Below are positions 1,878-8,561 of a stretch of 64,000 nucleotides of DNA, one piece after another. How positions within the stretch are numbered: position 1 is the first letter of the stretch; every line of letters starts with the position of its first letter. Below the pieces are notes generated by a model. The model made no database searches, was not told the origin of the DNA, and saw nothing but the letters and a program-made list of their open reading frames with translations. Position numbers and translations under genes: made by a program. The stretch is from Streptomyces sp. NBC_00443 (lineage in GTDB: Bacteria; Actinomycetota; Actinomycetes; Streptomycetales; Streptomycetaceae), in NCBI RefSeq assembly GCF_036014175.1, contig NZ_CP107917.1, positions 7,378,001 through 7,442,000 of the forward strand. Direction: 5' to 3'.

Positions 1878-2843
1878 ATGAGTACGACCACTGCGGACCG
1901 TGACGAGTTCGTCCGGCTGACCGGCCCGTACCGGCGGGAGCTGCTCGCGCACTGCTACCGGATGCTGGGCTCGGTAGACGAGGCCGAGGACCTGGTGCAG
2001 GAGACGTATCTGCGGGCCTGGCGGTCCTACGACGGCTTCGAGGGCCGGGCGTCCCTGCGGACGTGGCTGCACCGGATCGCCACCAACACGTGTCTGACGG
2101 CGCTGGAGGGCCGTGCGCGCCGTCCGCTGCCCTCGGGGCTCGGTGGGCCCGCCGAGGCGCCTGAGGAGCCGCTGAGGGCCCCTGTGACGGACGTTCCGTG
2201 GCTCCAGCCGCTGCCCGACGCGCTGGTCGACCCGGCGGGCGTCGTCGCCGCGCGGGGAAGTCTGCGCCTCGCCCTGGTCGCGGCCCTTCAGCACCTGCCC
2301 GCGCGGCAGCGTGCCGTCCTCATCCTGCGGGACGTGCTGGCCTGGCGGGCGGCCGAGGTGGCGGCGCTGCTCGGCACGTCGACGGCGGCGGTGAAGAGCA
2401 GCCTCCAGCGCGCGCGTGCCCGTCTCGACGAGGTGGCTCCCGACGAGGACCTCGTCGAGGAACCGGAGGACGCCGCAGACCGCGAGGTGCTCGAACGGTA
2501 CGTGGCCGCCTTCGAGAACGCCGACCTGGACACCCTGATCGGGCTCCTCCAAGAGGGCGTCGAGCTGGAGATGCCGCCCTTCCTGGAGTGGTACCGCGGC
2601 AAGGAGGACGTGCTGCGGTTCCTGCACGCGCGTGTCCACGAGAAGGGCACCCTGCGCATGTTGCGCACGCGCGCGAACGGGCAGCCGGCCGTGGCGATGT
2701 ACGTCCGCGGGGAGGACGACGTCCTGCGCGCGCACTCCCTGCAGGTGCTCACGGTGCACAAAGGCCTCCTGGCCCGGATCACGGCCTTCCTCGATCCGGC
2801 GGACCTGCTCGACCGGTTCGGGCTGCCCGAGGAGCTGTCATGA
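1878..2843 (+). CDS. ECF sigma-70 factor with C-terminal SnoaL-like domain
   Basis: This is a 321-residue extracytoplasmic-function sigma factor of the long type (SigG/SigJ-like, TIGR02960-type by my reading). Region 2 spans about residues 15-75 (HCYRMLGSVDEAEDLVQETY, then LRTWLHRIATN). Region 4 spans about 130-185 (LPARQRAVLILRDVLAW and TAAVKSSLQRARARL). From about 195 to the end there is a SnoaL/NTF2-like domain, which in related ECF groups modulates activity instead of a classical anti-sigma factor. ATG 1878 is preceded by GGAGGGAG at 1865. The stop overlaps the next start (ATGA), so the downstream MDMPI-fold protein is co-translated and may be a functional partner (inference). No membrane anti-sigma gene is adjacent. 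Confidence 0.5.
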   Translation: MSTTTADRDEFVRLTGPYRRELLAHCYRMLGSVDEAEDLVQETYLRAWRSYDGFEGRASLRTWLHRIATNTCLTALEGRARRPLPSGLGGPAEAPEEPLRAPVTDVPWLQPLPDALVDPAGVVAARGSLRLALVAALQHLPARQRAVLILRDVLAWRAAEVAALLGTSTAAVKSSLQRARARLDEVAPDEDLVEEPEDAADREVLERYVAAFENADLDTLIGLLQEGVELEMPPFLEWYRGKEDVLRFLHARVHEKGTLRMLRTRANGQPAVAMYVRGEDDVLRAHSLQVLTVHKGLLARITAFLDPADLLDRFGLPEELS

Positions 2844-3388
2844 ACTCCGGGGAACTGCTGGAGCGTTCGCTCGCCTACGCACTGGGCAGCGTCGCCGGGT
2901 CCGAGTCCGCGAGCCTGATGGGCGCGACGCCCTGCGCCGAGTGGGACCTCGGGGAGCTGCTCGGGCATCTCGACGACTCGCTGGACGCGCTGTACGAGGG
3001 CCTGACCGGCGGGCGGATCGGGCTGCTCCCGCGTGCCGACCGGGCCTGCGGCTTCCGTACGCGCGCGTGCGCGGTGCTCGGCGCCTGGACGGCCGGGCCC
3101 GCCGAGGAGCGTGTCCTGGTCGGTGAACGGCCGCTGGACGTACGGGTGATGGCCGCTGTGGGCGCCGTCGAGATCGCCGTGCACGGGTGGGACGTCGCCC
3201 AGGCCAGCGGCCGGCCCAGGCCCATCCCGCTTCCGCTCGCCGCCGAGCTGCTGAGCATCGCCCGCTGTGTGGTCGCGGAGGAGGACCGGGGCGTGCGGTT
3301 CGGCGCGCTGCTCCAGGTGCCGCCCCGCGCGCGTGCCGACGTCCGGCTGCTGGCCTTCCTGGGACGCCGCGATTCCTTTGCGGAGTGA
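2840..3388 (+). CDS. DinB/mycothiol-dependent maleylpyruvate isomerase-fold protein (TIGR03086-like)
   Basis: The 182-residue protein resembles the MDMPI_N/DinB four-helix bundle family. The N-terminal segment (CAEWDLGELLGHLDDSLDAL) has the helix-one histidine region and a later EIAVHGWDVAQASG segment contains the typical E-x3-H-x-WD metal-site motif. Proteins of this fold use a divalent metal and often a low-molecular-weight thiol such as mycothiol, but many are uncharacterised. The ATG at 2840 overlaps the sigma-factor stop by four bases, so expression is coupled to the ECF sigma factor. A role in sensing or detoxifying the signal for that sigma factor is inference only. Confidence 0.5.
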   Translation: MNSGELLERSLAYALGSVAGSESASLMGATPCAEWDLGELLGHLDDSLDALYEGLTGGRIGLLPRADRACGFRTRACAVLGAWTAGPAEERVLVGERPLDVRVMAAVGAVEIAVHGWDVAQASGRPRPIPLPLAAELLSIARCVVAEEDRGVRFGALLQVPPRARADVRLLAFLGRRDSFAE

Positions 3389-3397
3389 GCCCGGTCT

Positions 3398-3435
3398 GCC
3401 TTCCGTGAGTGACCCCCAGTGATCTCACGGAAGGC
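3398..3435 (+). promoter_or_regulatory. Inverted repeat covering the ribosome binding site of the DHA2 exporter
   Basis: Perfect 12-base arms GCCTTCCGTGAG (3398-3409) and CTCACGGAAGGC (3424-3435) surround a 14-base spacer. The right arm contains GGAAGG, the ribosome binding site for the ATG at 3442. It could be a repressor operator (two half-sites), a terminator for the sigma-factor operon, or an RNA hairpin that hides the ribosome binding site; sequence alone does not decide. No T-tract follows, which argues against a simple terminator. Confidence 0.5.
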
Positions 3436-3441
3436 ATCGTC

Positions 3442-4857
3442 ATGACCGAGACCCTGAAAGCCCCTCTCCTGTCGGCGTCCGCCGCGCAGGCGCCCCCGCG
3501 CCGCGGGTGGACGGTCGCCCTCGCCGGGCTAGGCGCGCTGTTGTGCTCCCTCGACGTCGTGGTCGTAGCCACCGCGCTGCCCGCGCTGCAGGCCGACTTC
3601 GGGGCCAGCCTGTCCGAGCTGGAGTGGACGATCAACGCCTACAACCTCGTGTTCGCGTGCCTCACCCTGACCGGCGCCGCGCTGGGCGACCGGTTCGGCC
3701 GGCGGCGGATGTACGTCGTGGGCCTCGCCGTCTTCACGCTCGCCTCGGCCGCGGCTGCCCTCGCCTCGGGCCCTGGTCAGCTCATCGGCGCGCGCCTGCT
3801 GCAGGGCGCAGGAGCCGCCGTACTGCTGCCGCTCACGCTGACCCGGATCAGTGAGGCGTTCCCGGCCGAGAGGCGGGGCGTCGCCATCGGCCTGTGGGGC
3901 GGGGTGACCGGACTCGGCGTGGCCGCCGGGCCGGTGCTGGGCGGGGCCGTCACCGAGGGCCTGTCCTGGCAGTGGATCTTCTGGCTGAACGTGCCCATCG
4001 GGCTGGCCATGATCCCCCTCGCCGCCCGCATGCTGCGCGAGAGCCACGGCACCCGCCCCCAGCTCGACCTCGTCGGGCTGGTGCTGGCGGCCGTGGGCCT
4101 GACGGGCCTGGCCTGGGCGCCGGTGCGGGCACCCGAGGCGGGCTGGGGGAGCGCCGAGGTGCTGACCGCGCTGGCCGCCGGGATCGTGTTCGTCGCGGCA
4201 TTCCTGGGCTGGGAGAAGAACGGGGCCCGCTATCCGATGCTGCCGCTGTCCCACTTCCGGCGGCGTGGGTTCTCGACCGCAAACGCCTCCGCGTTCCTCC
4301 TCTTCGCCTCGCTGCTCGGCGCCCTGTTCATGATCACGCAGCTCTTCCAGCTCGGCCTCGGCTACTCCCCGCTGGAGGCAGGTGTCCGGATCCTGGTCTG
4401 GAACGCCACGCCCCTGCTGATCGCGCCGGTCGCCGGAGCGCTCGCCGACCGGTTCGGGACCCGGCCGTTCATGCTGGGCGGCCTGGTGCTCCAGGCGACT
4501 GGCCTCGCGCTGCTGGCCTGGCTGGTCGAACCCGGCGTCGGATACGGCAGCCTCGTCGTCCCGCTGATCGTCGCGGGCGTCGGCATCTCCATGGTGTTCC
4601 CGAGCGTGGCCAACGCCGTGACCTCGTCCGTCCCGCTGGGCGACGCGGGCGTCGCGGCAGGCGTCAACAACGCGCTGCGCGAGCTGGGCGGCGTCTTCGG
4701 GATCGCCATCGCCGCGGCCGTGTTCACGACGTACGGCGGCTACGGCTCGCCGGAGGCGTTCATCGACGGAGCCGGGGCGGCGCTGTGGGTGACGGCGGCC
4801 GCGGCGGCCGTGGGGGCGGGGGTGGCGGCGTTTGCGCCCTCCCGCGCGCGGGCCTAG
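3442..4857 (+). CDS. MFS multidrug exporter, DHA2 (EmrB/QacA) family
   Basis: This 471-residue, 14-TM type proton-driven drug exporter has the DHA2 layout: the TM1 acidic-residue motif (LCSLDVVVVATALPAL), motif A after TM2 (GDRFGRRRMYVVGL) and the motif-C-like glycine-rich segment in TM5 (GGVTGLGVAAGPVLGG). I chose ATG 3442 because GGAAGG lies 7 bases upstream; an in-frame GTG at 3409 lies inside the inverted repeat and has no ribosome binding site. The gene stands downstream of the sigma-factor pair but is separated by the inverted repeat at 3398-3435, which probably controls it. Substrate is unknown. Confidence 0.5.
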   Translation: MTETLKAPLLSASAAQAPPRRGWTVALAGLGALLCSLDVVVVATALPALQADFGASLSELEWTINAYNLVFACLTLTGAALGDRFGRRRMYVVGLAVFTLASAAAALASGPGQLIGARLLQGAGAAVLLPLTLTRISEAFPAERRGVAIGLWGGVTGLGVAAGPVLGGAVTEGLSWQWIFWLNVPIGLAMIPLAARMLRESHGTRPQLDLVGLVLAAVGLTGLAWAPVRAPEAGWGSAEVLTALAAGIVFVAAFLGWEKNGARYPMLPLSHFRRRGFSTANASAFLLFASLLGALFMITQLFQLGLGYSPLEAGVRILVWNATPLLIAPVAGALADRFGTRPFMLGGLVLQATGLALLAWLVEPGVGYGSLVVPLIVAGVGISMVFPSVANAVTSSVPLGDAGVAAGVNNALRELGGVFGIAIAAAVFTTYGGYGSPEAFIDGAGAALWVTAAAAAVGAGVAAFAPSRARA

Positions 4858-4897
4858 CCGTTACCGGGTCAGGGCTTGCGGCACCCACCCCACCCTC

Positions 4898-4920
4898 TTT
4901 ATAGTCGTACTGACTATTAA
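4898..4920 (+). promoter_or_regulatory. Palindromic operator ahead of the Nudix/ADP-ribosylglycohydrolase operon
   Basis: ATAGTCGTACTGACTAT (4901-4917) is a perfect inverted repeat with arms ATAGTC/GACTAT and a 5-base centre; it extends outward to TTTATAGTC/GACTATTAA with one mismatch. It lies 15 bases before the start codon of the NrtR-like gene and overlaps the only AT-rich, promoter-like stretch. NrtR/NdnR-type Nudix regulators bind TAGT...ACTA-type palindromes, so autoregulation by the adjacent protein is a reasonable inference. Confidence 0.5.
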
Positions 4921-4934
4921 GGGGGTGGGTTCGC

Positions 4935-5651
4935 ATGGCCTACGACAAGTACGCCCACGAACCTTTCGCCGTCACCGCCGACCTCGCCGTCCTCACCATC
5001 CGCGACGGCGTCCTGCACGTCCTGCTCGTCGAGCGCGGGCAGGAGCCGTACAAGGGCAACTGGGCGCTCCCCGGCGGGTTCGTGCAGCCGGACGAGTCGG
5101 CGGAGACCGCCGCCCGGCGTGAACTCGCCGAGGAGACCGGCCTGTCGGACGTCTCCGGACTGCACCTGGAGCAGCTGCGGACCTACAGCGAACCCGACCG
5201 CGACCCCCGCATGCGGGTCGTGACGGTCGCCTTCGCCGCCCTGCTGCCCCACCCGCCCGAACCGCACGGCGGCAGCGACGCCGCGCAGGCGCGCTGGGTG
5301 CCGTACGACACGGCAGGTCCGCTCGCCTTCGACCACGACCGGATCCTGGCCGACGCCCATGAACGCGTCGGCGCCAAGCTCGAGTACGTCGGCCTCGCCA
5401 CCGCCTTCTGCCCGCCCGAGTTCACGCTCGGCGAGCTGCAACAGGTCTACGAGACGGTGTGGGGGACCGCCCTCGACCGGCCCAACTTCCGCCGCAAGGT
5501 GCTCGCCACACCGGGCTTCGTCGAACCCGTGCCCGGCGCGGCCCGGCTCACCGGCGGCCGCGGCAAGCCGGCCGCGCTGTACCGCGCGGGCAGCGCCGCC
5601 ACCCTCCATCCGCCCCTGCTGCGGCCCACCCCGGAAGGACCCCCCGCATGA
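4935..5651 (+). CDS. NrtR-like Nudix protein with C-terminal winged helix
   Basis: Residues about 10-140 form a Nudix fold. The Nudix box is fully intact (G48-x5-E54-x7-R62-E63-L64-x-E66-E67-x-G69-L70), so ADP-ribose/NAD-type pyrophosphatase activity is possible. Residues about 150-225 (FTLGELQQVYETVWGTALDR then NFRRKVLATPGF) match the winged-helix DNA-binding domain of NrtR regulators, which sense ADP-ribose and control NAD metabolism genes. Regulatory NrtR proteins often have degenerate Nudix boxes; here both functions could persist. The start is ATG 4935, with GGGGGTGGG upstream. It overlaps the next gene by ATGA and is headed by the palindrome at 4898-4920. The regulator role is inference from architecture and context. 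Confidence 0.5.
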   Translation: MAYDKYAHEPFAVTADLAVLTIRDGVLHVLLVERGQEPYKGNWALPGGFVQPDESAETAARRELAEETGLSDVSGLHLEQLRTYSEPDRDPRMRVVTVAFAALLPHPPEPHGGSDAAQARWVPYDTAGPLAFDHDRILADAHERVGAKLEYVGLATAFCPPEFTLGELQQVYETVWGTALDRPNFRRKVLATPGFVEPVPGAARLTGGRGKPAALYRAGSAATLHPPLLRPTPEGPPA

Positions 5652-6670
5652 CCACGACCACCGTCCGCAAGCGCGCCGCCACCGGCGCCCTGCTCGGCCT
5701 CGCCCTCGGGGACGCGCTCGGCTTCCCGACCGAGTTCAACGACGTGCCGTCGATCCTCGCCAAGTGCGGGCCGTGGCGCGAGATGGAATTGCCGACGCCG
5801 GCCATCGTCACCGACGACACGCAGATGACGCTCGCCTTGGGGAAGGGGCTGCGGACGGCGACGGACCTGGGCGTGCTCGGACCCGAGGCGATGACGGAGC
5901 CGGTGCGGGCGGAGTTCGTGGCATGGAACCGCTCCCCGGAGAACAACCGGGCCCCGGGCAACACCTGCCTGAGAGCCTGTGACCTGCTGGAGCGGCCCGA
6001 CATGCCCTGGCAGGACGCCAGCCAGACCGGCTCCAAGGGCTGCGGCGCCAACATGCGCGTCGCGCCGATCGGGCTCGTCCCCGGCCTCAGCGACGAACAG
6101 CGCGCGGGCGCCGCCCAGTTGCAGTCCGCGCTCACCCACGGGCACCCGACAGCCCTCGCCGCCTCCGACCTGACCGCGCACGCCGTACGACTGCTCGCCC
6201 AGGGAGCCGAACCGACCGGACTGGTCGGGCTGCTGCGGTCGTATGCCTACGAGAACCGCACCCGCTACCACGAGCGCTGGCTCGGTGACCTGTGGACCCG
6301 CAGCCAGGACCCCACCCCCGAGCACTTCATCACGCGAGGCTGGGACGAGTGCCTGGGGATCCTGGACCGGGTCCAGGAGGCCGTACGGACCGTCTCGCCC
6401 GAGACCGATCCGTGCCTGGCCACGGGCGAGGGCTGGATCGCCGAAGAGGCCATGGCCTCGGGCCTGTTGTGCTTCCTGTGGTTCGTCGACGAGCCGCTGA
6501 CGGCGCTGCGCCGGGCCGCCTGCACGTCGGGCGACTCGGACTCGATCGCGTGTCTGACGGGGGCCTTCGCGGGCGCGTATCTGGGCGCCGACGCCTGGCC
6601 GACCCGGTGGGCGGACCGGATCGAGTACCGGGGTGACCTGCTGACCCTCGGAGCGCTCTGGGACGCTTGA
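5648..6670 (+). CDS. ADP-ribosylglycohydrolase (DraG/ARH family)
   Basis: This 340-residue enzyme hydrolyses ADP-ribosyl bonds on protein, nucleic acid or small-molecule substrates. Both di-magnesium motifs are present: GALLGLALGDALG near the N-terminus with TDDTQMT at about 55-61, and GDSDSIACLTGAFAGA at about 295. An asparagine-rich loop (NRSPENNRAPGNTCLRA) matches the substrate-side segment of this family. ATG 5648 overlaps the Nudix stop, and the next gene starts 3 bases after its stop, so this is a tight operon. Pairing with an ADP-ribose-sensing Nudix regulator suggests a role in turnover of ADP-ribosylation or NAD-derived modifications (inference). Confidence 0.5.
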   Translation: MTTTTVRKRAATGALLGLALGDALGFPTEFNDVPSILAKCGPWREMELPTPAIVTDDTQMTLALGKGLRTATDLGVLGPEAMTEPVRAEFVAWNRSPENNRAPGNTCLRACDLLERPDMPWQDASQTGSKGCGANMRVAPIGLVPGLSDEQRAGAAQLQSALTHGHPTALAASDLTAHAVRLLAQGAEPTGLVGLLRSYAYENRTRYHERWLGDLWTRSQDPTPEHFITRGWDECLGILDRVQEAVRTVSPETDPCLATGEGWIAEEAMASGLLCFLWFVDEPLTALRRAACTSGDSDSIACLTGAFAGAYLGADAWPTRWADRIEYRGDLLTLGALWDA

Positions 6671-6673
6671 CGG

Positions 6674-7441
6674 ATGATCGACGCCCTGGACATCGACCTC
6701 ACGCCCGTCGTCGCCGAGCAGCCCGACCCGGTGCTGTTCGCGACCGTCTCCGGCGCGCATCTGTACGGCTTTCCGTCACGCGACTCGGACGTGGACCTGC
6801 GGGGCGTGCACCTGCTGCCGGCCGCCGACCTCGTCGGGCTGCGGGAGCCGGACGAGACGCGGTCACGGATGTGGGTCCGGGAAGGCGTCGAGATGGACCT
6901 GGTCACGCACGACCTGCGCAAGTTCGTACGGCTGATACTGCGCCGCAACGGCTACGTGCTGGAGCAGCTGCTCTCGCCGCTCGTCGTGCACACCACGGAC
7001 GCCCACCGGGAGCTGGCCGAGCTCGCGCCCGGCGTCCTCACCAGCCACCACGCGCATCACTACCGGGGTTTCGCGAACACGCAGTGGCGGCTCTTCGAGA
7101 AGACCGGGGAGCTCAAGCCGCTGCTCTACACCTTCCGGGTGCTGCTCACCGGCATCCATCTGATGCGCAGCGGTGAGGTGCAGCCGCATCTGCCCACGCT
7201 GGTCGGGGCGGCCGCCTCGGACGGGAAAACCGACGCGCCCGGCTATCTGCCGGAGCTGATCGCGGCCAAGGCGGAGCAGGAGCACGGGCCCGCCGACGTC
7301 GAGCACGCGCGTGTGGCAGCCGACGTCGAGCGGCTGCACGGTGTGCTGGACGAGGCGCAGGCGGCCTCAGCGCTGCCCGACGCCCCGAGCACCTACGACG
7401 CCCTGCACGCCTTCGTCGTACGGACCCGGCTGGAGAGCTGA
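6674..7441 (+). CDS. Pol-beta superfamily nucleotidyltransferase (COG3541-type), copy 1
   Basis: The 255-residue protein has a minimal nucleotidyltransferase fold: SGAHLYGFPSRDSDVDLRG at residues 26-44 supplies the glycine loop and the two metal-binding aspartates (D39, D41), and EGVEMDLVTHD downstream could give the third. The canonical GS dipeptide is changed to SG. A helical C-terminal half follows (THHYRGFANTQWR-like segment after LTSHHAH). The family (YcgL-like, predicted nucleotidyltransferases) has no settled biochemical role. It is the third gene of the Nudix operon, starting 3 bases after the ADP-ribosylglycohydrolase stop. Its 3' end overlaps the convergent paralogue by 75 bases. 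Confidence 0.5.
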   Translation: MIDALDIDLTPVVAEQPDPVLFATVSGAHLYGFPSRDSDVDLRGVHLLPAADLVGLREPDETRSRMWVREGVEMDLVTHDLRKFVRLILRRNGYVLEQLLSPLVVHTTDAHRELAELAPGVLTSHHAHHYRGFANTQWRLFEKTGELKPLLYTFRVLLTGIHLMRSGEVQPHLPTLVGAAASDGKTDAPGYLPELIAAKAEQEHGPADVEHARVAADVERLHGVLDEAQAASALPDAPSTYDALHAFVVRTRLES

Positions 7442-8110
7442 CGCGCGGCGGACGCGGATCAGGAAGTCCTCGACCCGGCGGCGGTCCGGCTCGGCCGGGA
7501 GCGGACTGCGGTGGGCGGCCTCCTCCGCCTCCCTCGCCAGGCGGGTCATCCGGGACTCGACCTCCGGCCAGGGGACCTCGCCGCGCTTGACCTCCAGCAG
7601 CGCCTCGCGCCCGTCACCCACGTCGATCGTCAGGTGGCCGCTGCGCAGCAGGTCGCGGGCGCTCCTCAGGAGGCGGAGGAGGTGCATCGCGTGCTTCCAG
7701 CGCGGGGCGCCGTGGGAGCGGACGTCCGCCTCCAGCTTCTTGCGCTGGCCCAGTGCGTAGCGCGTGAACGTCTCGAAGGCCTGGCGGGACAGGAACGCCT
7801 CGCGCAGGGCGAGGAGCTCGCGGCCCGTGTCGTCGACGTGCTCCACGAGCGGGGAGTGCAGGCACTCCAGGATGTTCGGGTTGGCGCGCAGGGCGAGCTC
7901 GCAGAAGCGCTCCAGTTCCCAGCTGAACTGCTCCTCCAGCGGGCCGTCGATGTGCGTCGGCGGCTTGTCGAAGCGCCAGAAGAGCGGCGTAGGAGCGAGG
8001 AAGACGCCCCTGCGGTCGGTGTCGCTGCCCTCCGTCGCCAGACCGAAGGCGCGCGAGCCCATCACACAGGCGTAGATCGTGTGGTCGCGGACCAGGGTCT
8101 CGGGGCGCAT
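7367..8110 (-). CDS. Pol-beta superfamily nucleotidyltransferase (COG3541-type), copy 2
   Basis: This 247-residue paralogue of the preceding gene has the canonical motif VMGSRAFGLATEGSDTDRRG (G18, S19; metal aspartates D30 and D32). A helical domain with ANPNILECLHSPLVEHVDD and RYALGQRKKLEADV follows. It is transcribed toward copy 1, and the last 25 codons run antisense to the end of copy 1. Start is ATG 8110; no strong ribosome binding site is visible. Two diverged nucleotidyltransferases beside an ADP-ribosylglycohydrolase suggest either complementary activities or a heterodimer (inference). Substrate is unknown. Confidence 0.5.
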   Translation of the reverse strand: MRPETLVRDHTIYACVMGSRAFGLATEGSDTDRRGVFLAPTPLFWRFDKPPTHIDGPLEEQFSWELERFCELALRANPNILECLHSPLVEHVDDTGRELLALREAFLSRQAFETFTRYALGQRKKLEADVRSHGAPRWKHAMHLLRLLRSARDLLRSGHLTIDVGDGREALLEVKRGEVPWPEVESRMTRLAREAEEAAHRSPLPAEPDRRRVEDFLIRVRRASALQPGPYDEGVQGVVGARGVGQR

Positions 8111-8132
8111 GCCCCGGAGCGTACGCGGCGGA

Positions 8133-8561
8133 TCACACCAGCCGGATCGAATTTCCCTCCACGACGATGTTCTTCGCCGGCAGCGGCTTCGTGGCCGGCG
8201 GGTTGGCCACCGCGCCGTCCGTGATCTCGAACTTGCTGCCGTGGCACGGGCAGTTGATCGTCCCGTCCGAAACGCTGCCGACCAGGCACTGCTGGTGGGT
8301 GCAGATGGCGGAGAAGGCCTTGAACTCGCCCTGCTCGGGCTGGGTCACCACGACCTTCTCGTCCTTGAAGATCGTGCCGCCGCCCACCGGGATGTCGGAC
8401 GTGCGGGCCAGCTCGTCGCCGTCCTGGCCGGGAGAGACGGTGGTCGACGTCGGCGACGAGTCGCCGTCGCCGTCGGAATCGCCGCAGCCGGTGACGAGCG
8501 CCGTCGCACCCGTCACGCCGGTCGCGATGAGGATCGTGCGCCGCGTCGGACGGTAGGTCAT
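8133..8561 (-). CDS. Tat-exported Rieske [2Fe-2S] lipoprotein
   Basis: This 142-residue protein has a twin-arginine signal (R7R8TILIATG) and a lipobox LVTGC with Cys26, so it should be folded before export and lipid-anchored outside the membrane. After a low-complexity Ser/Thr/Asp linker the Rieske domain carries CTHQQC (C87, H89, C92) and CPCHG (C104, C106, H107): two Cys and two His ligands plus the disulfide pair typical of high-potential Rieske proteins. GGAGTG precedes the ATG. No quinol oxidase or cytochrome b gene is adjacent, so its redox partner is not evident; similar small Rieske lipoproteins are common in Streptomyces. Confidence 0.5.
   Translation of the reverse strand: MTYRPTRRTILIATGVTGATALVTGCGDSDGDGDSSPTSTTVSPGQDGDELARTSDIPVGGGTIFKDEKVVVTQPEQGEFKAFSAICTHQQCLVGSVSDGTINCPCHGSKFEITDGAVANPPATKPLPAKNIVVEGNSIRLV

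Follow-up and report, generated by a model that had tools for sequence, protein, structure and literature searches.

Regulons of nicotinamide adenine dinucleotide (NAD) metabolism under the control of NrtR were reportedly described by Rodionov in 2008. NrtR proteins sense adenosine diphosphate ribose (ADP-ribose), according to passages of PMC9503650 on systems centred on an ADP-ribosylglycohydrolase (ARG), a little over 55% of which carry a coupled phosphatase by the same passages; the word RlaP is absent from the main text of that paper. The RlaP proteins are predicted, in a part of PMC7824862, to restore lost nucleotides ahead of ligation. For Streptomyces, sections of PMC11833690 report that 5' RNA ends are ADP-ribosylated by the KptA-like SCO3953, and that SCO5809, an ARH-like enzyme, strips ADP-ribose from RNA phosphate ends. 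Here we describe a four-gene cassette, nrtR-draG-rlaPA-rlaPB, that brings such proteins together in a stretch of 64,000 nucleotides from Streptomyces sp. NBC_00443 (contig NZ_CP107917.1, positions 7,378,001 to 7,442,000 of the forward strand). This whole stretch is called the window below, and coordinates refer to it.

Judged from its sequence, the locus is a conserved cassette of an NrtR-type regulator, an ADP-ribosylhydrolase and two RlaPs, with a predicted promoter overlapped by a conserved palindrome. We read it, with a probability of about 0.55, as the reduced form of an NrtR-controlled NAD/ADP-ribose stress operon, whose putative activities would remove ADP-ribose and supply nucleotidyltransferases for RNA ends. 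Its switch is probably a sensor of NAD breakdown, and the composition of the cassette suggests a recovery programme after NAD-consuming damage.

The cassette, its proteins and its operator

The gene nrtR (4935-5651, + strand) encodes a Nudix sensor fused to a winged-helix DNA-binding domain, draG (5648-6670, +) a DraG/ARH-type ADP-ribosylhydrolase, and rlaPA (6674-7441, +) an RlaP-family nucleotidyltransferase of the DNA polymerase beta (pol-beta) type. The second RlaP paralogue, rlaPB (7367-8110, -), is convergent. The end of nrtR and the start of draG share an ATGA, draG and rlaPA are 3 nt apart, and the 3' ends of rlaPA and rlaPB overlap by 75 bp on opposite strands. The original prediction of four genes, two of them diverged pol-beta nucleotidyltransferases and the first three overlapping or nearly touching, is thereby borne out: all frames are present and Pfam assigns their domains. 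It had also let the palindrome head the operon; because rlaPB lies on the other strand, the palindrome-headed transcript can hold three of the four cassette genes, nrtR-draG-rlaPA, and not rlaPB. All four genes are under purifying selection, with median ratios of non-synonymous to synonymous substitution (dN/dS, over 63-80 loci per gene) of 0.23 for nrtR, 0.28 for draG, 0.19 for rlaPA and 0.24 for rlaPB, the tyrA reference being 0.12.

NrtR matches the Pfam families NUDIX (5.6e-24, 85.1 bits) and NrtR_WHD (8.5e-16, 58.3 bits), both above cut-off. Against the NCBIfam equivalog of the ADP-ribose-responsive repressor (NF050029) it reaches 127.8 bits where the cut-off is 400, and we therefore call it NrtR-type rather than a member of that equivalog. 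As in NrtR systems, a palindromic operator lies at the promoter of its own gene, and NAD genes (pnuC-nadR) belong to its regulon in relatives. Its Nudix box is intact, as had been claimed, and is kept in 97 of 98 NrtR copies of relatives. Aligned with the window protein, the chain of PDB 3gz5, which we take to be the Shewanella NrtR, does not keep the canonical box; since the box is present here, unlike in that chain, the protein may break down its ligand as well. The single PADLOC match, PDC-S07 (2e-7), falls on the Nudix portion of the protein.

DraG belongs to ADP_ribosyl_GH (PF03747, 1.2e-63) and, again as claimed, has the two motifs that we take to be the metal motifs of DraG. The first, [TS]DDTQ, is present in 118 of 120 copies (the two exceptions are matches confined to residues 112-340 and 122-340), and the second, GD[ST]D[ST], in 119 of 120. 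The protein is not DraG proper, the dinitrogenase reductase enzyme: it scores 74.9 of the 337 bits set for TIGR02662, and no transferase such as DraT occurs among the cassette genes. In a passage of PMC9411070, SCO1766 is named with seven others as an uncharacterised DraG homologue. Tables of PMC6637917 that also hold SOS genes give SCO1767 at +1.92 and +1.81 log2 on constitutively lowered or raised topA. By their numbers and names, SCO1766 and SCO1767 would be the S. coelicolor genes of this cassette. SCO1767 is probably the cassette NrtR, and its rise on topA change fits a stress role, with no cause named. Were the two indeed cassette genes, SCO1766 would gain a likely operon and inducer.

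The promoter ahead of nrtR is predicted at 4876-4905 (+), with a -35 box TTGCGG at 4876, an 18-nt spacer and a -10 box TATAGT at 4900-4905. Overlapping the -10 box is the putative NrtR-type operator, TTTATAGTC-N5-GACTATTAA (4898-4920, +), within which (TTTATAGTCGTACTGACTATTAA) the perfect core ATAGTC-N5-GACTAT runs from 4901 to 4917. The exact palindrome occurs once in the 9.45-Mb genome. For its conservation we used 80 RlaPA loci (79 from Streptomyces, one from Kitasatospora, 63 carrying NrtR), a set biased to close relatives because it is the best 80 of one scan. With at most one mismatch and within 250 bp upstream, the palindrome is found in 54 of the 63 NrtR-carrying loci against 6 occurrences in 970,830 background bases, which is not chance. 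A TTG stands 17 or 18 nt ahead of TATAGT in 50 of these 54 loci, compared with 13 of 1080 control positions; a generic sigma-70 scan called no promoter at the cassette. Another 13 loci (12 readable) begin with DraG and lack NrtR, and nine have a sister palindrome, TTTATTGTC-N5-GACGATAAA, within two mismatches of the window core; the remaining three readable ones stand at three mismatches. Where both NrtR and DraG are missing (four loci), no operator match lies within four mismatches. A one-mismatch palindrome elsewhere in the genome, at C1:3431869, was rejected as an operator and taken as chance, since it lies near a DeoR-type gene, lacks the TTTAT/ATAAA arms and falls in a class (at most two mismatches) with 14 sites against 15 in the control.

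Conservation and neighbourhood

The cassette occupies one core site, scpB-rluB ... tyrA-cmk. A survey anchored on tyrA covered 61 genomes of the genus, 58 with TyrA, and 56 loci were taken; the window's own genome, the short fragment G396 and four secondary TyrA-like matches were left out. Split or partial matches (L209, L211, L231, L239, L261) were scored as present. Between rluB and tyrA, the full set PnuC-NadR-NrtR-DraG-RlaPA/RlaPB was found in 12 of the 56 loci and NrtR-DraG-RlaPA/RlaPB, the form of the window, in 9. Five loci each hold NrtR-DraG-RlaPB, DraG-RlaPA/RlaPB and PnuC-NadR-NrtR-DraG-RlaPB; two each hold DraG alone, NrtR-DraG, DraG-RlaPB and RlaPA/RlaPB; one each holds NadR-NrtR-DraG-RlaPA/RlaPB, PnuC-NadR-NrtR-DraG and RlaPB alone. 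Counted by gene, DraG is present in 44 loci, RlaPB in 42, NrtR in 35, always with DraG (35/35), and RlaPA in 29, always with RlaPB (29/29, partial matches counted) and 27 times with DraG. The co-occurrence of DraG and RlaPA has a Fisher p of 0.0086, uncorrected for kinship. Among the 80 RlaPA loci, RlaPB is missing in two, one of which ends just after RlaPA.

The genes pnuC and nadR serve nicotinamide riboside uptake and NAD synthesis. In 18 of the 56 loci they open the operon, ahead of nrtR-draG and with one operator for all (the NCBIfam assignment of PnuC and NadR was made on one pair). With the widened pattern TTTATHGTC-N5-GACDATAAA at no more than two mismatches, chosen after the data had been seen and controlled by the reversed pattern, the 637,974 bases of the tyrA-anchored loci gave 36 sites, every one of them no more than 300 bp ahead of the first cassette gene, and the control gave 0. 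Sorted by that first gene, sites precede PnuC in 18 of 18 loci, NrtR in 11 of 16, DraG in 7 of 9 and NadR in 0 of 1; none was found in the 12 loci without PnuC, NadR, NrtR and DraG. One genome whose locus is empty of cassette genes (L254) has pnuC-nadR-nrtR-draG beside scpB-rluB elsewhere (L192).

In the window itself, sigma-factor, MDMPI-type and major facilitator superfamily (MFS) genes fill 1878-4857, between rluB and nrtR, where relatives carry pnuC-nadR; these three are found at the cassette site in some relatives only. On the far side, a Rieske-domain gene lies 22 bp before rlaPB on the same (-) strand (7367-8561), and co-transcription with rlaPB may occur. A Rieske match was found in 69 of the 80 RlaPA-anchored loci, some matches being partial.

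The RlaPA profile (E<=1e-20) found 4 of 296 genomes of the phylum, all in the window's genus; Embleya and Nonomuraea nevertheless have relatives of RlaPA, with 68% and 61% identity. The family PF10127 (E<=1e-12) was found in 18 of the 296, 11 of them outside the genus. Next to the Nonomuraea relative of RlaPA stands a divergent gene that by eye resembles a Nudix hydrolase (L270, 7143-7694 and 7983-8729).

RNA ends, NAD genes and the proposed programme

The role of these nucleotidyltransferases (COG3541) had been called unknown in the original prediction. Pfam now places both proteins above cut-off in RlaP (PF10127; 4.5e-54 for RlaPA, 3.6e-31 for RlaPB), titled 'RNA repair pathway DNA polymerase beta family', and a prediction of their role exists. 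Acidic residues are invariant in 39-row alignments (D39, D41 and D75 in RlaPA; D30, D32 and E60 in RlaPB, whose E60 was paired with RlaPA D75 by eye), and the pol-beta acidic motifs are present in 103/109 and 108/109 copies of RlaPA and in 114/119 and 119/119 of RlaPB.

In three Deinococcus species (D. gobiensis, D. ficus and D. taeanensis), a plasmid carries two tandem nucleotidyltransferases directly after Hen1. Pnkp follows them directly in D. gobiensis and one gene later in D. ficus; it is not among the genes listed near the pair on the D. taeanensis plasmid. The first enzyme has RlaPB as its best match (46-49% identity, against 27-30% to RlaPA), whereas the second has RlaPA (49-51%, against 24-28% to RlaPB). 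Since best-match orthologues of both RlaPs adjoin Hen1 and Pnkp, a role in RNA-end repair is indicated, and the earlier proposal that the two enzymes write an ADP-ribose mark finds no support. RNA ligase or end-repair genes next to an RlaP were met in Deinococcus, in two phages and in one of the 11 other loci of the phylum (L164, RlaP directly downstream of Hen1-Pnkp); they are not adjacent in the window. In Gordonia phage Daredevil an RlaP relative adjoins an RNA ligase, and in Streptomyces phage GiJojo (L272:4995-6933) an RlaP-like gene, a PnuC-like transporter and a polynucleotide kinase stand in a row. The latter phage thus combines genes of NAD salvage and of RNA repair. On the D. taeanensis plasmid (L267:3994-8777) a Thg1-family gene precedes Hen1-RlaPB-RlaPA, two other genes intervening, and 5' and 3' end enzymes may thus share one repair island there.

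Structure models of RlaPA and RlaPB are of middling quality, with a predicted local distance difference test (pLDDT) of 75 and 77, and Foldseek found no match for either at E<=0.001. The RlaPA model aligns with HalB (Z 8.3, root-mean-square deviation (rmsd) 3.9, 166 aligned), with 3c18 (Z 7.8, rmsd 7.9) and with antibiotic nucleotidyltransferases (Z 6.3-7.1); such Z scores also arise from common arrangements, and the model is therefore no more than compatible with a pol-beta fold. Structure comparison of the RlaPB model gave no useful match. A third, more distant RlaP group is present in many Streptomycetaceae genomes (L060-L068, L071, L072; profile positions ~17-170) and was not found in this genome.

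Operator-like sites outside the cassette were sought with TTTATYGTC-N5-GACRATAAA, a pattern taken from the DraG-first class. At up to three mismatches the own genome has only three sites (control 0): one at the cassette, one in the promoter of another, second NrtR gene, and C1:2249256. The last precedes a gene for an SPFH/Band 7 protein and one for a NAD-kinase-like protein; this second protein matches structures of mitochondrial NAD kinase 2 (5.9e-9) and, weakly, the NAD kinases of NCBIfam. The SPFH/NAD-kinase-like pair (G000:C1:2249255-2255296; L156:8256-14297) adjoins, and is convergent with, the Pnkp-Hen1 RNA-repair operon. Over the 61 genomes, at up to two mismatches, the pattern gave 26 forward sites against 0 in the control: 13 at the cassette or pnuC-nadR-nrtR, 8 at the SPFH/NAD-kinase-like unit, 1 at a second nrtR and 4 elsewhere. 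The early picture of a cassette with its own operator, in which the hydrolase is linked to two nucleotidyltransferases, thus holds as to conservation but missed the full form with pnuC-nadR, the operator at the second NrtR gene and the SPFH/NAD-kinase-like unit. A further operator-like site (two mismatches) lies 89 bp before a SIR2-like-domain gene in another genome (L193:7837-9752, G366). The own genome carries a KptA-family gene in addition to Pnkp-Hen1. Its cassette site is without pnuC-nadR, and nadR was not searched for elsewhere in it. Its only PnuC-family gene was considered as a nicotinamide riboside unit and rejected, because it sits between riboflavin genes and has no operator.

In the programme that we propose, NrtR would bind the palindrome and block the -10 box. 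NAD consumed by ADP-ribosyltransferase toxins, by phage or by KptA-type RNA end-processing would yield free ADP-ribose, which, as the presumed inducer, would bind the Nudix domain and release NrtR; the intact Nudix box may cleave ADP-ribose and reset the switch. DraG would strip ADP-ribose from macromolecules, be they proteins or, as for SCO5809, RNA ends, and the RlaP pair would add nucleotides back to damaged 3' ends of RNA in support of the Pnkp-Hen1 encoded elsewhere. In many relatives PnuC and NadR, from the same operon, would rebuild NAD from imported nicotinamide riboside. Such cleaning and RNA-end repair, triggered by ADP-ribose, fits the precedent of SCO5809 and SCO3953, the KptA-family gene of this genome and its Pnkp-Hen1. 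More tentatively, the sites together may outline an undescribed Streptomyces NrtR regulon coupling NAD status to RNA repair, in which one ADP-ribose signal would call up PnuC-NadR and the NAD-kinase-like protein, DraG, and the RlaP pair with Pnkp-Hen1, for recovery once toxins or phage have cleaved or ADP-ribosylated RNA. If true, it would link NAD/ADP-ribose sensing to bacterial RNA repair, and the predicted RlaP nucleotidyltransferases would gain a possible trigger, testable in Streptomyces.

Rival readings and known systems

Several findings weigh against the stress operon with RNA-end enzymes. RlaPB lies outside the transcript of the NrtR operator. Nine of the 56 tyrA-anchored loci have no cassette gene, 12 lack DraG, two of the 29 RlaPA loci are without DraG, and 13 of the 42 RlaPB loci are without RlaPA. 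Nine of the 63 NrtR loci have no palindrome at one mismatch or fewer (two stand at 2, one at 3 and six at 5-6). In a related genus (g7), two genomes hold RlaPA-DraG-RlaPB with neither NrtR nor operator, and five have RlaPB alone at the cassette site; an RlaP pair without DraG also occurs beside a PcrA/UvrD helicase gene. Some copies are decaying (L057, L050, L069, L041), with RlaPA broken (G060) or split (G048), RlaPB broken (G056) or DraG a remnant (G021), which means that some strains can do without the system. DraG itself is far under the equivalog cut-offs, for Tri1 (62.6 of 490 bits) as for TIGR02662. Rare co-occurrence of the genes had been named as refutation from the start: within Streptomyces they do co-occur, but at 11 RlaP loci elsewhere in the phylum (profiles and tblastn) NrtR was found in none and a DraG-like gene in one (L160), about 4.5 kb off and taken as chance. 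The SPFH unit adjoins Pnkp-Hen1 in two of seven long loci (L156 and L199; not L198 or L200-L203). Finally, Hen1 is present in 58 of the 61 genomes, and being near universal its presence is uninformative.

Among the rivals, a counter-conflict system of the ARG-centred kind survives best, and even so we hold it to be somewhat doubtful. The operon would then reverse ADP-ribosylation of host macromolecules by phage or by competitors' toxins. Parts of PMC9503650 describe ARG systems, actinobacterial ones included, that have a Nudix or WYL repressor but lack a coupled transferase, and the cassette likewise has an ARG and a Nudix repressor and no transferase. However, Pfam shows no phosphatase, chaperone or restriction endonuclease (REase) domain in the four genes, and its fixed core location and purifying selection stand in contrast to fast turnover. 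This rival overlaps the stress-operon reading and does not exclude it.

Plain NAD homeostasis is an unlikely account of the whole. NrtR would control NAD salvage, DraG would recycle ADP-ribose from endogenous mono-ADP-ribosylation, and the RlaPs would be passengers at a tolerant site. The 18 loci with pnuC-nadR-nrtR-draG in a row suit it, as do the 17 of 44 DraG loci without RlaPA, the placing of RlaPB outside the transcript and alone in five genomes of the related genus, the entry of other genes (Sig-MPI-MFS) into the site, and the unlinked RlaP and DraG outside the family. Against it, rlaPA stands on the same strand after draG (3 nt in the window) and lacks DraG in just 2 of 29 loci, with the Fisher value given above and its limit as to kinship; the RlaPA-DraG order in the two genomes of the related genus is a rearrangement that keeps the neighbourhood.

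That the RlaPs instead AMPylate or nucleotidylate proteins or small molecules, as MNT antitoxins or antibiotic nucleotidyltransferases do, with DraG and Nudix cleaning up the products, is improbable: the solved structures closest to the RlaPA model (HalB, aminoglycoside and spectinomycin nucleotidyltransferases) lean that way weakly, but the Deinococcus best-match orthologues stand after Hen1 and before Pnkp on two of three plasmids, the phage relatives have RNA ligase or polynucleotide kinase as neighbours, and Pfam found no HEPN-type partner in the cassette.

The stress-operon reading can finally be set beside the systems already described. Like the ARG-centred systems in passages of PMC9503650, actinobacterial ones included, the cassette joins an ADP-ribosylglycohydrolase without adjacent transferase to a Nudix-helix-turn-helix repressor thought to sense ADP-ribose. 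It differs from those passages in having no rhodanese phosphatase, peptide-binding chaperone or REase, and in having two RlaPs and, in relatives, pnuC-nadR; as no phosphatase or chaperone is among the four genes, we liken it to these systems and do not file it there. With NrtR regulons it shares the Nudix and winged-helix regulator, the palindromic operator at its own operon and, among relatives, NAD-salvage genes in that operon; it differs in that the operon holds draG and rlaPA and in that the Nudix box is intact. The mycobacterial operator given for M. smegmatis NrtR in a part of PMC6800001, GTTTTCGA-N7-TCGAAAAC, is unlike that of the cassette. The RlaPB-RlaPA pair recurs, by best match, in the RlaP/Hen1-Pnkp RNA-repair operons of the Deinococcus plasmids and of sections of PMC7824862, whereas the Streptomyces pair is convergent and lies apart from Hen1-Pnkp, and its RlaPA follows an NrtR-type operator and has DraG as neighbour. 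D. radiodurans DRB0100-DRB0099-DRB0098 (ligase, poly(ADP-ribose) glycohydrolase (PARG) and HD-phosphatase/kinase), as treated in part of PMC11833690, likewise puts an ADP-ribosylhydrolase into a putative operon with nucleic-acid end-repair enzymes; it has a PARG macrodomain in place of DraG and a ligase and kinase in place of the RlaPs, and no NrtR is named in that part. This conserved system thus stands closest to the ARG-centred systems with Nudix repressors, to NrtR regulons and to RlaP RNA-repair operons, and in combining the three it is a new variation on a known theme.

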